A stretch of 35,156 nucleotides of DNA from an uncultured Akkermansia sp. Lineage in GTDB: Bacteria; Verrucomicrobiota; Verrucomicrobiia; Verrucomicrobiales; Akkermansiaceae. Location: assembly GCA_947630815.1 (NCBI GenBank), contig CANRJD010000011.1, positions 1 through 35,156 of the forward strand, in the 5' to 3' direction. Below, in pieces: positions 18,332 to 34,816 of this stretch. The position numbers and the translations under genes are program-made. Numbering within the stretch: the first letter of the stretch is position 1; every line of letters starts with the position of its first letter. Below the pieces are notes generated by a model. The model saw only the letters and a list, made by a program, of their open reading frames with translations. It made no database searches and was not told the DNA's origin.

Positions 18332-18820
18332 TTATTTTTTCTCGGAAGCTTGCTGCTCTAGAATCCTGTGAAAGACAAAATAATCATCCTGAGCTTTTCT
18401 GATCAAGCTGAACACTTTAGCGTATTTAGGATCTGTTTCTCTTTGGCTCCCCCAATAATAACATCTTGCAGAAGGAAAAGGTATCGCGCCTTTCTCCAAC
18501 ATAAGCGCCACCATCTCTTCATCATTTAAGTAAAAAGCAATCGAAAGCGGGGTCATCGTCGAGGTGCCCACGCTTAACATATCATTCAATTCTTCCGGAT
18601 GAGACCTGATGTGCTCCATTACCTTATCTCGTGAAACTTTTTCATCTCGATAGTCCAGTAAAAGAATCAGCATTGCGCTCTTATAGTGCCGTTTAGCACC
18701 GGGTACTGAGAATTCAGGATGATTGGGGTTTCCTGGACGATAAACGCACTGACCCTCCGCATACACGGAAGGAAGAAGCAGAGACAAGCCTACAAATGCG
18801 GTCAAAATATTCTTTTTCAC
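18332..18820 (-). CDS. Small secreted 'LEKGAIPFP' family protein, copy 1 (GTG start)
   Basis: VKKNILTAFVGLSLLLPSVYAEGQ signal peptide; ...MTPLSIAFYLNDEEMVALMLEKGAIPFPSAR (degenerate ankyrin-like). Confidence 0.8.
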   Translation of the reverse strand: MKKNILTAFVGLSLLLPSVYAEGQCVYRPGNPNHPEFSVPGAKRHYKSAMLILLLDYRDEKVSRDKVMEHIRSHPEELNDMLSVGTSTMTPLSIAFYLNDEEMVALMLEKGAIPFPSARCYYWGSQRETDPKYAKVFSLIRKAQDDYFVFHRILEQQASEKK

Positions 18821-18826
18821 AGGCTT

Positions 18827-18855
18827 GTTATGCCACACTAAAAGCCTTGGGTCAA
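18827..18855 (-). promoter_or_regulatory. Promoter TTGACC-N17-CATAAC, 6 nt before GTG
   Basis: -35 complement of 18850-18855, -10 complement of 18827-18832; conserved in the second copy. Confidence 0.6.
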
Positions 18856-19174
18856 GATTTAAAAATTTTTGACACAGCGGCGGGAGGTATGTCCTCCCGA
18901 AAGAAAGTCTCTGCCCTTGAATCCCGCTTCGCCCCGCTTTGGGATGCCCTCGGAGTCGCAACCGGACAAAAGTAGCGTACACACCATGTGTTGCAAGCAC
19001 GTCATTATGCTGGCAGAAAAGCGCAAGAAGAAACGTAAGGGAGAGGAGCGCCAAGGAAGTTGAAAAGAGGGGGATGTGAAATTGGTTCGGTAGTTATGGG
19101 GCTGTCCAACTATAGTCGGCGGTGTGAGAGGGGGGCGAAAGCCCCCTACTCGATAACCAGATGCACGTATAATT

Positions 19175-19783
19175 TCAGTTCTCGCTCTTGAGAATCATTT
19201 TGTTCAATTCATACTTTTGCTGTGCCCTGTGTATCATATCTATGATTTCCGGCTTTATTTCACCGCCGTAAATACATGAAACCATGTCTATGATATCTGT
19301 TCCTCTCTCATACGGGAAAGGAATAGCTCCTTTATCCAGCATAGCTTTAGCTAATTCAACATTAATCTTTGATATCACAACCATCAGGACTGTCATAGCA
19401 ATCCCATCATGGAAGCAGACATCATTAACTTCCTCGGGATGTTCTTCTATTGCCTTTAACATCCTTGCCGGAAATTCCTTTGCATCATCCTCACATTTGA
19501 CGCTGTTAATAACTTCAAAGAGGTGACTACGGTACTTGAGTTCAATTGCTTTTTTGCTATCCATAAAAGCAGGGTGTTTTGGATCTCCCGGCACTTCAAG
19601 TGAATCGGCATAAACGAAACTTACCGTTATGACCTTTTTAGGAGAAAGATCTTCTATTTTTTGCTTTATAGGTATGTATCCATCCGGGAAAAATATAACT
19701 GTCCCGTCTGTATAGGTTACAGCATCTTTGGCAAGACCATAATATAAAAGGTCTCTAAGACCTTTTAACTGCACTGTGCCCAA
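19175..19783 (-). CDS. Diverged 'LEKGAIPFP' family paralog
   Basis: EEHPEEVNDVCFHDGIAMTVLMVVISKINVELAKAMLDKGAIPFPYERG aligns with the flanking copies. Confidence 0.7.
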   Translation of the reverse strand: MGTVQLKGLRDLLYYGLAKDAVTYTDGTVIFFPDGYIPIKQKIEDLSPKKVITVSFVYADSLEVPGDPKHPAFMDSKKAIELKYRSHLFEVINSVKCEDDAKEFPARMLKAIEEHPEEVNDVCFHDGIAMTVLMVVISKINVELAKAMLDKGAIPFPYERGTDIIDMVSCIYGGEIKPEIIDMIHRAQQKYELNKMILKSEN

Positions 19784-19799
19784 CGGTAAAAACTCTTTT

Positions 19800-20195
19800 T
19801 TATGCTGCTAAGTTTGTAAATATGGAGATCATACACGGGCTTTGAATTCCAATAATCTTCCATAATAAAAATAATTGCCCATCATTCGTCGTCCACCACC
19901 ATTTGGCGAAAGCGTACCAGCAAGCTTCTCGCCATAACGTTGGCAGATCATTAAACGGAATCGCTTTTCCCGTTCCCCATAGTTCAGGCTCTCTTTCATC
20001 TCCCCATATTCTATTATTGATCACCTCATCTCTTGTTCTAGGCGTGCCTTCCATTACTTTGCGTATGTCGCATGCGGCACGGGAACTTGAACCAAATACC
20101 GATGAAACATTTTCAGGAGACAATTCTTTATGATTGGAAACTATGGGGGGCTCCGCCTGCAACATTTGAACGAAGGGGACTACTATTAGTGGCAA
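19800..20195 (-). CDS. Hypothetical protein, possibly a degenerate paralog
   Basis: 131 aa ORF; LPTLWREACWYAFAKWWWTTNDGQLFLLW weakly resembles LRDLLYYGLAKDAVTYTDGTVIFFP of the adjacent gene. Confidence 0.4.
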   Translation of the reverse strand: MPLIVVPFVQMLQAEPPIVSNHKELSPENVSSVFGSSSRAACDIRKVMEGTPRTRDEVINNRIWGDEREPELWGTGKAIPFNDLPTLWREACWYAFAKWWWTTNDGQLFLLWKIIGIQSPCMISIFTNLAA

Positions 20196-20230
20196 AATGA
20201 TTTTTTCATGTCTGAATGAGGGCTTTGTAT

Positions 20231-20891
20231 AAACTGGTGCCCATTTTTCGACACCTTGGAAGTATCAAGACCATGACATTATGTCATGACCTTATTTTTT
20301 CTCGGAAGCTTGCTGCTCTAGAATCCTGTGAAAGACAAAATAATTATCCTGAGCTTTTCTGATCAAGCTAAACACTTTAGCGTATTTAGGATCTGTTTCT
20401 CTTTTGGCCCCCCAATAATAACTTCTTGCAGAAGGAAAAGGTATCGCGCCTTTCTCCAACATAAGCGCCACCATTTCTTCATCATTCAAGTAAAAAGCAA
20501 TCGAAAGCGGGGTCATCGTCGAGACGTGCGCGCTTAACATATCATTCAATTCTTCCGGATGAGACCTGATGTGCTCCATTACCTTATCTCGTGAAACTTT
20601 TTCATCTCGATAGTCCAGTAAAAGAATCAGCATTGCGCTCTTATAGTGCCGTTTAGCACCGGGTACTGAGAATTCAGGATGATTGGGGTTTCCTGGACGA
20701 TAAACGCACTGACCCTCCGCATACACGGAAGGAAGAAGCAGAGACAAGCCTACAAATGCGGTCAAAATATTCTTTTTCACAGGCTCGTTATGCCACACTA
20801 AAAGCCTTGGGTCAAGATTTAAAAAATTTTTTGACACAGCGGCGGGAGGTGTGTCCTCCCGAACCCCGAAAGAAAGCCTCTGCCTTGAAGA
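20231..20891 (-). repeat. Direct repeat copy 2 (~650 bp)
   Basis: aaactggtgcccatttttcgacac...gtcctcccgaa...gaaagcctctgcc; matches 18271..18918. Confidence 0.9.
20292..20780 (-). CDS. Small secreted 'LEKGAIPFP' family protein, copy 2 (GTG start)
   Basis: Near-identical to copy 1; differences include SVGTST/SAHVST and CYYWGSQ/SYYWGAK. Confidence 0.8.
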   Translation of the reverse strand: MKKNILTAFVGLSLLLPSVYAEGQCVYRPGNPNHPEFSVPGAKRHYKSAMLILLLDYRDEKVSRDKVMEHIRSHPEELNDMLSAHVSTMTPLSIAFYLNDEEMVALMLEKGAIPFPSARSYYWGAKRETDPKYAKVFSLIRKAQDNYFVFHRILEQQASEKK

Positions 20892-21074
20892 GCGGTTTCG
20901 CCCCCCTCCATGCCCGCAGCAAGCGCAGGAAGCACATTCTTGCACATCGTGAGCGAGCCCGTGAAGTAGCCCCTCTCAACCTCTCCCGCCAGTTCACCGC
21001 ATCCCAACGAAGCATGCAAAGTGCCCTGTCAGGCACTTGCGAACGTTAAAAACTCTACAAATCACAAAATGTAG

Positions 21075-21145
21075 TAGTCTCGCCTGGGTTCGAACCAAGA
21101 CTAAGGGAACCAAAATCCCTTGTGCTACCATTACACCACGAGACC
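21075..21145 (-). tRNA. tRNA-Gln (anticodon UUG)
   Basis: Minus strand GGTCTCG-TG-GTGTAATGGTAGCAC..AGGGA-TTTTGGT-TCCCT..CTTGG-TTCGAAC-CCAGG-CGAGACT-A: cloverleaf folds, no encoded CCA. Confidence 0.9.
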
Positions 21146-21232: not shown

Positions 21233-23569
21233 TCATGTTTTAACGCCCCAATTAACCGTGCCCGCTTTGTTCTTGATGTTCGGATTCGCTCCGGAGTCTA
21301 AAAGAGCTTGAACGCCTGTAGTCTCGCCCATCATCACGGCCATCATGAGAGCGGTGTTGCCTTCGTTGTCTTGCGTGTTGATGCGGATACCTCGTTGCAT
21401 GAGAAGACGCACCATTTCGGATCTGTCTCCATAAAAGCTGCAAAAAAAGAGAGGCGTTCTTCCCTTGGCGTCGCGCACGCGAGCGTCGGCGCCGGCACGA
21501 AGAAGCTGGGCAATCAGTTTCGCATTACCTGCGTAGAAAAGCGGGGTTTGACCATCTTGGTTGATCGGCTTGTTCACGTCAACTCCTGCTTCAATAAAGT
21601 CAGGCATCACTTGATCAATGCGCCGCATGGATTCAGAAAAGAGCATGATAGAGGAGTCGCAGATTTTATCAGGCACCTCAGCTTGTACAATGTTGGCGAG
21701 GAGAGAGTTGCCGTCCCCATCCGTTTCATTCGGATCCTCGCCTGCTTTGAAAAATGCACGAAGGACTGCCATGTTGAATTTCTCGAATAACGGGCTTTCG
21801 CGGTCCTTTCCCCATGACGCCAGCTCCGGTTTGTACCCGTGCTGTTTGAGAATTTGGATGATATCAACGTAGTCCGCGCAGAGTCTAGCGGGAGCCTTTC
21901 CACCATAACGTACATTCGTAAAATCAGACATGAGACGGTAGGTCATATCCTTGGAGATGCGGGCGCCGATCTTGAGCAATGGCTCGATCTTCTCCGGATC
22001 TACGACCCAAAGTTCGCCGGGGTCAATTCCCTTTTCCTTGAGCAGCTTTACGACCTCTACTGCGCCTTCTGCCATAGCGCGATTCATGGCGCTAGGTTCT
22101 TCACTAACCCACCTATCTGTGCTGATTCTCCAGCTGGTTTTCTCGAGCTTTACGCACGGATCCACTCCGGCATCCAACAGACGCTTGGCGATCTTGCTGC
22201 CCCAAACGCCGTTGGCCATGAGAGAGGTCCACCCATCTTCCCTCTTTGCTAGAGGATCGGCGCCGGCATCGAGCAGCATGAGAGCCAGCTTTTCACGCCC
22301 GGCAGGGGATATCTCTGGTCTCAGTTCCTGAGTGAGGATGTCTTTGGGCACATCCGCCCCCGCCTTGATCAGTAGCTCCACCATACTTAGGATGTCCGCT
22401 TCGGCCCTTTTACTCACGCGGTAAAACGTCGAATTTTCCCGATACACATCTCCACATCCTCCGCAAGCAGTGTAATAAATGACGCCTTTTCCTGCGGAAT
22501 CTTTGGCATGTATATCAGCCCCGGCATCCAGCAGTCGTTTCACAATCTCAGTTCGATGTGCAGCTTTTTCCGCCTCCCGCGTTGCGGAATTGGCAGCTGC
22601 CATCAGCGGGGTCATTTGATCATTTCCTTTCGCGTTGGGGTTAGCTCCGTGAGCAAGGAGCTGTTGCACATCGGGGAGGTTCACTCGACTCGCTGCTTGA
22701 TGAAGAAACAGTGATGTGTTCACATCCGCCTTGGCTCCGGCGTCAATGAGAGTGAGAACAAAGTTTGCGCCTTTGTTGGAATACTCCTCCAATGTTTTAT
22801 TCGGATCCTGGAGCGTTGCACCCGCTTTGAGGAGCGCTTTCAGCATTGCCCCGTCGCCCTTTTCGATGACCGCTTCCACGAGCTTTTCGTTCTTGGCGTC
22901 TAGTCCGGTGTTCAGGAGAGCTTGCAGCGTTTTCGCATCGGAGATGGAGGAGAATATTTCCGGATTTTGGAGCAGGGGAGGATCTTTTTTCAGCTGTTCA
23001 AGAGCGGTTTCTTTTTGCTTCAGTTGAAGCGCAATCTTCATCTGAAGCACGGGATCGACAATGTCCACTTTCACCCCGAGCGCACGGAGGAGCTGAAGCG
23101 GTTGCACGTTCGCCACACTGGAGAGGTCCCCCGGGAGAATGAACTTCCTCGCACCGATACGATAAAGCAGAGCGAGTTCCATCGGACTTCCGGAAAAAGA
23201 ATCCATTTTCCATTCCATATTTTTCAGTTTACTGAACTCCTCTGCCTTTGCCCCACGCAGCAGAAGGATCTCATCCGCTTCCTCGAGGTAGTCTTCCGAA
23301 GAAAAAAAGTCTTCCTCAATTTCAATTTCGCCCGGAACTTCGCCTTGATACGCGTACATATCCCGCGCCTCTTGGCGACTCAGCGGCTGCTTTTCCCTCT
23401 CGAGTGCCGTCAGAAAATCGCTCAGGTCCCCGTGAGATAGGTCGCCGGCTGTTTTGCCGGATTTGCTCTTGATGGAGGCATCCGCCCCCTTTGCCACGAG
23501 CCAGCAGACCGCAAGACGGTTGCCCCGTGCAGCGGCATACATGAGCGCAGTCTGCCCGAGCTTGTCCAC
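21233..23569 (-). CDS. Secreted ankyrin-repeat protein (ANK2), paralog of ANK1; open frame extends to 23788 and beyond without ATG/GTG/TTG
   Basis: 778 aa from GTG 23569. In-frame upstream translation LAYFKRFIVSFAACVICFTGTASASVPQRGVELLFPAGTGKQAKG... has no stop and includes a signal peptide homologous to ANK1. Confidence 0.85.
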   Translation of the reverse strand: MDKLGQTALMYAAARGNRLAVCWLVAKGADASIKSKSGKTAGDLSHGDLSDFLTALEREKQPLSRQEARDMYAYQGEVPGEIEIEEDFFSSEDYLEEADEILLLRGAKAEEFSKLKNMEWKMDSFSGSPMELALLYRIGARKFILPGDLSSVANVQPLQLLRALGVKVDIVDPVLQMKIALQLKQKETALEQLKKDPPLLQNPEIFSSISDAKTLQALLNTGLDAKNEKLVEAVIEKGDGAMLKALLKAGATLQDPNKTLEEYSNKGANFVLTLIDAGAKADVNTSLFLHQAASRVNLPDVQQLLAHGANPNAKGNDQMTPLMAAANSATREAEKAAHRTEIVKRLLDAGADIHAKDSAGKGVIYYTACGGCGDVYRENSTFYRVSKRAEADILSMVELLIKAGADVPKDILTQELRPEISPAGREKLALMLLDAGADPLAKREDGWTSLMANGVWGSKIAKRLLDAGVDPCVKLEKTSWRISTDRWVSEEPSAMNRAMAEGAVEVVKLLKEKGIDPGELWVVDPEKIEPLLKIGARISKDMTYRLMSDFTNVRYGGKAPARLCADYVDIIQILKQHGYKPELASWGKDRESPLFEKFNMAVLRAFFKAGEDPNETDGDGNSLLANIVQAEVPDKICDSSIMLFSESMRRIDQVMPDFIEAGVDVNKPINQDGQTPLFYAGNAKLIAQLLRAGADARVRDAKGRTPLFFCSFYGDRSEMVRLLMQRGIRINTQDNEGNTALMMAVMMGETTGVQALLDSGANPNIKNKAGTVNWGVKT

Positions 23570-23799
23570 GGCGTTGATATCGCCGCCTTTTTCGATGGCT
23601 TTTAGCTTTTTGAGCAGGGAGGCGGCGTGCTTCTGCTCCTTGCTGAGCTTGGCACCCTTCGCTTGCTTTCCCGTGCCCGCCGGGAAGAGGAGCTCTACTC
23701 CTCGCTGCGGTACGCTCGCTGATGCCGTCCCTGTGAAGCAAATGACACAGGCTGCGAATGAAACTATAAAGCGCTTAAAGTAAGCTAAATAACAAATTC

Positions 23800-23807
23800 G
23801 GGGGGGG
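23800..23807 (-). repeat. Homopolymer G8 (+) / C8 (coding) between upstream ATG (23826) and ANK2 signal-peptide frame
   Basis: aaattc-gggggggg-tagcgg. Confidence 0.9.
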
Positions 23808-24155
23808 TAGCGGCGGCGTATGTCATAACGAATTGTATAAAATCCACAGACAGCTTAACATTTTTTCCACTTTAGCACAAGAGCAAAAGAAAATAAAAAT
23901 GCTCCAGCCACACCCGTCTCATGAAAAGAGCGATCCCAACACGCGGTTATCGGTGCGTAATGTAGCATAATTTGTTCATAATTTAAGATTTACGATTTCA
24001 ATGCTAGCATGCTACGCGTGTTCCTGCGAAACAAAAGCAAAGCGGAATTTTCGAAAATGATGATGCGTTGATAGAAGGAAAGCATCTGCTGTTACGCTAT
24101 GCCGGGTTCACTGCTATGCCGAATCGTCAATGGTTTGACATCGTACGTCGTACAT

Positions 24156-30664: not shown

Positions 30665-30707
30665 GCGGGTATCTCTCGTTTTTTTGACTCAGGCTGGCAG
30701 GGGGGGG

Positions 30708-34791: not shown

Positions 34792-34816
34792 GATAGACTT
34801 CACGCCCCCCCCAGGG

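Follow-up and report, generated by a model that had tools for sequence, protein, structure and literature searches.

A common poly-C leader, usually out of frame, precedes ankyrin and other predicted exported proteins in a group of Akkermansia species: probable translational phase variation

The window considered here, which is the whole 35,156-nucleotide stretch from an uncultured Akkermansia sp., encodes two large ankyrin-repeat proteins, ANK1 and ANK2, both on the minus strand. The ANK2 open reading frame (ORF) has 854 codons (positions 21233 to 23797, with the stop at 21233). Its Pfam matches are to ankyrin repeats only (Ank_2, E = 1.8e-43, plus Ank_4, Ank, Ank_5 and Ank_3), 33-residue tandem ankyrin repeats are present, and these matches settle the predicted fold class. 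The sole ATG upstream of this ORF is at 23824 to 23826. From there, the minus strand reads ATG ACA TAC GCC GCC GCT A-CCCCCCCC-GAATTTGTTATTTAGCTTACTTTAAG; these leader codons, through the final A, occupy 23808 to 23826, which places the ATG 19 nt from a run of eight Cs (C8) at 23800 to 23807, the proposed slippage site, and GAATTTGTTATTTAGC is directly 3' of the tract. As read from the sequence, frame 0 of the ATG encodes only the short peptide MTYAAATPPEFVI, which is closed by a TAG at 23785 to 23787. Because the tract is C8, ANK2 is out of frame with its sole ATG; the two are in frame only with nine (or 6, or 12) Cs, and a protein begun at the ATG with C9 would have 864 amino acids. The leader, the tract and the short peptide match, base for base, those in the preliminary description of this DNA, and the computed frame agrees with its statement that the ATG enters the long frame at nine or six Cs.

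The bases that follow the tract form a conserved motif, GAATTTGTTATTTAGCTTACTTTAAGCG (23772 to 23799), in which both wrong frames encounter a stop and the right frame begins the signal peptide. The long frame opens with ICYLAYFKRFIVSFAACVICFTGTASA at 23797 (ICYLAYFKRF...). The ORF listing, the family comparison and the dN/dS values described below all point to a coding segment from 23570 to 23797 that carries the signal peptide (..KRFIVSFAACVICFTGTASA). Read by eye, the signal peptide of the family has a basic n-region, a hydrophobic core and an AxA-like site, and these are conserved in the family. The segment was first described as 73 codons without a usual start codon; it is in fact 76 codons long, but the rest of the statement stands, as no ATG, GTG or TTG was found in the ORF frame between the upstream stop and the GTG at 23569, and a separate check of the eight codons that follow the tract showed no start codon. 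A sigma-70 promoter scan of this strand revealed no clear promoter for ANK2. At the other end of the gene, near 21233, the sequence stops abruptly (KNKAGTVNWGVKT), the paralogues run on with KTALQIAKE..EHGAKE, and a tRNA-Gln gene (21074 to 21145) is located about 90 nt downstream. The C-terminus of ANK2 looks truncated or recombined.

The ANK1 ORF (32 to 2512) also encodes ankyrin repeats (Ank_2, E = 4.7e-45), and its switch-leader ATG, again read from the sequence, is at 2538 to 2540. Its C8 tract (2514 to 2521) likewise leaves the gene out of frame with its ATG. ANK1 would be in frame only with seven or ten Cs and ANK2 with nine or six, and so the earlier proposal that the paralogues require different tract lengths is correct. 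The window has slightly more C7 runs than expected (9 versus 3.85, a number reached in 4 of 100 shuffles); therefore, the tract alone is weak evidence, and chance is ruled out because the position of the tract is conserved in the homologues. At 30700 to 30707 and 34805 to 34812 the window has two further C8 runs, which lack the leader and were rejected as switch members. Between ANK1 and ANK2 (18332 to 20945) there are two near-identical ORFs (18332 to 19054 and 20292 to 20945) that share KKNILTAFVGLSLLLPSVYAEG.. and look like a local duplication of a small, probably exported, protein.

The source assembly is a 2.09-Mb draft in 130 contigs that is 87% complete, and a DNA search of it gave nine matches. 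Six ankyrin copies in this genome have the leader, namely ANK1 and ANK2, each with C8, and copies on contigs C13 (nine Cs), C32 (nine), C35 (eight) and C100 (nine). Only the C100 copy, which is cut by the contig end, is in frame (ON); the computed frame is OFF for both the C13 and the C32 copies. A Sel1-type gene on contig C66 has the same leader with seven Cs and is out of frame with the leader ATG, and another in-frame ATG occurs further upstream. One ankyrin paralogue has no tract (locus L040, 11897 to 15748). It begins MKSLTVATSLNLLSTYFKNFTILLLASILMLAGASRADE and has what we consider the native arrangement, an ATG and about 20 residues followed by the signal-peptide core. Most of the approximately 40 runs of C8 or longer in the source genome lack the leader and are not switch members. 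Two similar non-ankyrin sites (L046 and L056, on C36 and C125) have ATG..CACCTTGTTA-C8 and then a short hydrophobic frame; possibly they represent a separate, unrelated tract family. Three more loci (L013, L027 and L055, on C4, C16 and C109) have C8 or C9 tracts with a similar flank (CTATATGTTGA 3' of the tract) and no long ORF.

Of 77 congeners covered by a profile search, 11 sister species (G064 and G066 to G075) have strong homologues. The leader motif itself occurs in 14 of these 77 species, whereas the genomes sampled from the rest of the order lack it (388 genomes searched in all), and a reversed control pattern had no matches. A scan of named genomes produced only distant relatives with 27-33% identity, in two Akkermansia MAGs and one Fusobacteriia MAG. 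We tabulated the 5' ends of the homologues together with leader matches found by pattern in the source genome and 12 congeners (13 genomes). The table has 90 copies with C5 or more, of which 83 (13 genomes) have C7 to C11. Taken from the assembly consensus, with one genome for each species, the tract lengths are C5 in six copies (a few of these six are incidental matches), C6 in one, C7 in 10, C8 in 38, C9 in 28, C10 in six and C11 in one. The ATG is present in all of the tract-bearing copies, and it is 16 or 19 nt from the tract in 86 of the 90, a difference of one codon. In most copies both wrong frames stop three to seven codons past the tract, and stops like the TAG of ANK2 are near-universal. 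Up to 14 tabulated switch copies are present in one genome. In one species (G068; L106, L112, L116, L144, L149, L164 and L165), the nine tabulated switch copies are all exactly C9 and all OFF, and they belong to different frame classes.

The table of tract length versus frame, which had been suggested as a check on the C8 run as a switch, shows a tract in a fixed position, 5 to 11 Cs long; where flanks are nearly identical, the tract length differs and other indels are absent. It also addresses the concern that the frameshift is an assembly error. Homopolymers are error-prone and the source assembly is a fragmented draft, so such an error could be imagined for ANK2; however, a single-site error is untenable because 13 genomes share the pattern, with the same anatomy and the same excess of out-of-frame copies, and errors would not follow the frame class of the linker. 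Nor do the genes resemble ordinary pseudogenes, since ORFs of several hundred to more than 1000 codons are open and their dN/dS is low. We regard homopolymer error or pseudogenes as an extremely improbable explanation.

The in-frame state is rare. Only 10 of the 83 copies with C7 to C11 are in frame, compared to a mean of 22.8 expected when tract lengths were shuffled among copies so that neither the distribution of lengths nor the frame class of any copy changed (10 or fewer occurred in 0.02% of the runs, P = 0.0002); some of the tabulated copies are paralogues within one genome and not fully independent. With copies of C6 or more, the number is 11 of 84, or about one per genome. The single-copy beta-barrel gene has C7 to C9 in its orthologues from seven species, and all seven are OFF. 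Because in-frame copies are so few, the repertoire looks default-off, and the likeliest reading of these consensus sequences is that OFF cells form the majority in the sampled populations. Since random slippage would give more in-frame copies than this, selection or some other cause is needed; cost, immune selection or bet-hedging might each contribute.

A scarcity of in-frame alleles would also be expected if the out-of-frame gene were the working form, that is, if the OFF genes were expressed because RNA polymerase slips on the C tract or ribosomes shift frame, and the genomic tract length mattered little. The C tract is a plausible slippery site, and the purifying selection on OFF copies described below would fit such recoding. 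However, the OFF copies have frame offsets of +1 in 39 cases and +2 in 34. As the two are about equally common, a programmed frameshift in one direction cannot read all of these genes, and slippage in both directions would be demanded. In addition, the tract-less copies and some C5 copies are in frame without a long tract. Recoding is therefore, in our opinion, an unlikely explanation compared to a change in the tract itself.

Comparisons between copies suggest that the tract changes quickly. In the six pairs that are most similar on both flanks, the tract length differs in all six, and there is no indel across the 140-nt flank. For example, two near-identical copies in G072 are C8 (OFF) and C7 (ON). 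Where the flanks of a pair agree in 90% or more of their positions (18 pairs), the tract lengths are equal in six, a share of 0.33 that is the same as the background of 0.33; therefore, tract length is decoupled from ancestry. The out-of-frame copies appear to be under purifying selection with no decay, as dN/dS is less than one in 249 of 249 OFF-OFF pairs (median 0.25). The ANK2 orthologue in G070 has C10 and is also OFF, and dN/dS between the two is 0.49 over all 232 codons compared and 0.29 over the 76 disputed codons upstream of the GTG, which bears out the suggestion that this segment was selected as protein. As in known contingency loci, a 5' homopolymer sets the frame, its length varies between conserved flanks, the OFF bodies are kept functional, and in-frame and out-of-frame alleles both occur, the former less often than expected.

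The proposed switch assumes that translation begins at the ATG. A different possibility is that the protein is begun past the tract, at the TTG of TTTGTTATTA, perhaps by reinitiation once the short peptide has ended, and that the ATG merely opens a regulatory upstream peptide. In most copies TTG TTA TTA is in the ORF frame directly 3' of the tract, so a protein begun there would keep its signal peptide, and such a start would account for an ATG that is kept out of frame. However, 11 OFF copies, including ANK2, have no ATG, GTG or TTG in the first eight post-tract codons, and pairs among these 11 still have a median dN/dS of 0.27. The ATG is universal in the tract-bearing copies and its spacing changes by whole codons. 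Furthermore, the ATG is in frame in all eight tract-less paralogues (native N-terminus MKSLTVATSLNLLSTYFKNF..) versus 10 of the 83 copies with tracts (Fisher P = 5e-7). A TANANT box is also positioned consistently: 86 distinct upstream regions contain 81 matches, of which 69 end 24-31 nt upstream of the ATG, and about 36 matches in all are expected from shuffles. With the box in this position, the first start codon on the mRNA is likely to be the ATG. Together, the start-less OFF copies, the tract-less paralogues and the box position favour the ATG as the predicted start, and we consider a post-tract start very unlikely. Constitutive expression from a non-canonical codon, which the preliminary description had named as a possible refutation of the switch, is disfavoured by the universal ATG and by the conservation of the 11 start-less OFF copies.

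The leader is not restricted to one type of protein. Downstream of it are ankyrin family 1, ankyrin family 2 (GWKVPHGVGVLFHGK..), Sel1-repeat proteins (PF08238, E = 3.4e-25 in L165) and an outer-membrane beta-barrel protein (PF13505, E = 2.3e-8 in L158). Two copies with family 1 and family 2 bodies, L104 and L154, have 99% identity over 300 nt upstream and 55% over 100 nt downstream. Similarly, a Sel1 gene and a beta-barrel gene of G068 are 85% alike over the 80 nt that precede the tract and 93% alike over the 30 nt that follow it, and then diverge. The pair L165 and L192 resembles L104 and L154 in that promoter and leader are alike before unrelated bodies, with a breakpoint near the C tract. 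Such alignments suggest that switch genes exchange their promoters by recombination around the C tract. The use of one leader by unrelated exported proteins and the significant rarity of in-frame copies are both additions to the preliminary description.

Reassortment of promoter/leader and body among copies, together with about one in-frame copy per genome, might also suggest that most copies are a silent archive that recombines into a few expressed loci, and that the tract merely keeps the archive off. Archives, however, usually lack a promoter and start, and these copies keep the ATG and mostly a promoter-like box. The single-copy beta-barrel gene has the same switch in seven species with no close archive copies. 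The pilS/vls type of organization, with donors that lack promoter and start and one expression site, is not what we find. Silent cassettes are thus a quite unlikely primary explanation, although archive recombination can operate in addition to phase variation.

ANK2 very probably belongs to a family of repeat proteins, predicted to be Sec-exported, that are subject to translational phase variation by a C-tract frameshift. Translation would begin at the ATG and run through the C tract, and replication slippage would add or remove one or more Cs. In the ON state, signal peptide and ankyrin body would be in frame; in the OFF state, translation would end a few codons later. Each gene has its own tract and so would switch independently, and since most assembled copies are OFF, a cell would presumably export a small, changing subset of its repertoire. 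We infer from the sequences that slippage is the mutational process, that switching is live, that the proteins are secreted and that having most copies OFF is of benefit. We are evenly divided on a wider proposal, in which promoter, ATG leader, C tract, the stops of the two wrong frames and the opening codons of the signal peptide together form a portable cassette that is OFF by default. Recombination would have spread it onto two ankyrin families, Sel1-repeat proteins and an outer-membrane beta-barrel protein in one gut-type clade, and a cell would display a small random subset of a large repertoire while selection in the host keeps most copies OFF.

Contingency genes of Neisseria, Haemophilus and Campylobacter have poly-G/C near the 5' end and switch independently to give combinatorial surface phenotypes. 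They share the out-of-frame start with the genes described here, which differ in that a single leader with stops in both frames serves exported proteins that are not homologous, the lineage is a probable Akkermansia-type commensal and the in-frame fraction is unusually low. In A. muciniphila, the EPS/capsule gene Amuc_1413 is reported to undergo phase variation at a G9 tract, and deposited genomes have 8G and 10G alleles (PMC13055324). Like the ANK2 family, it has a coding-region G/C homopolymer, with a reversible +/-1 frameshift, and out-of-frame stops nearby; unlike it, Amuc_1413 is a single, normally ON gene with the tract about 55 codons in, does not encode an ankyrin, Sel1 or beta-barrel protein and has neither a shared leader nor a paralogue family. 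Long mononucleotide repeats in the first A. muciniphila genome are concentrated at gene termini, and phase variation by slippage was proposed for them (PMC3048395), but they are in 17 scattered genes with no common switch leader. The cps1 locus provides another phase-variable surface property in Akkermansia, by DNA inversion rather than slippage, as it is controlled by an inverton (PMC13343947). As homopolymer phase variation has been reported in Akkermansia, the mechanism is already known; what is new is the marked OFF bias and a leader common to several protein families. A role as exported proteins for surface interaction has been proposed for the ankyrin proteins of the genus (PMC10540074). 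A literature search on ankyrins and phase variation found no paper on phase-variable ankyrins, and one on a shared poly-C leader returned unrelated systems only.

These observations have a practical side. A standard gene caller that accepts only ATG, GTG and TTG would begin ANK2 at the GTG at 23569 and lose the signal peptide, so that the annotation of such secretomes would be systematically wrong. That OFF alleles are in excess also raises the testable question of which host factor disfavours the ON state. The best-known phase-variable repertoires are those of pathogens. In the present case, a lineage that is probably commensal appears to have, in each genome, several exported proteins that can switch independently under a common leader, which suggests that its ankyrin proteins are displayed by few cells at a time.
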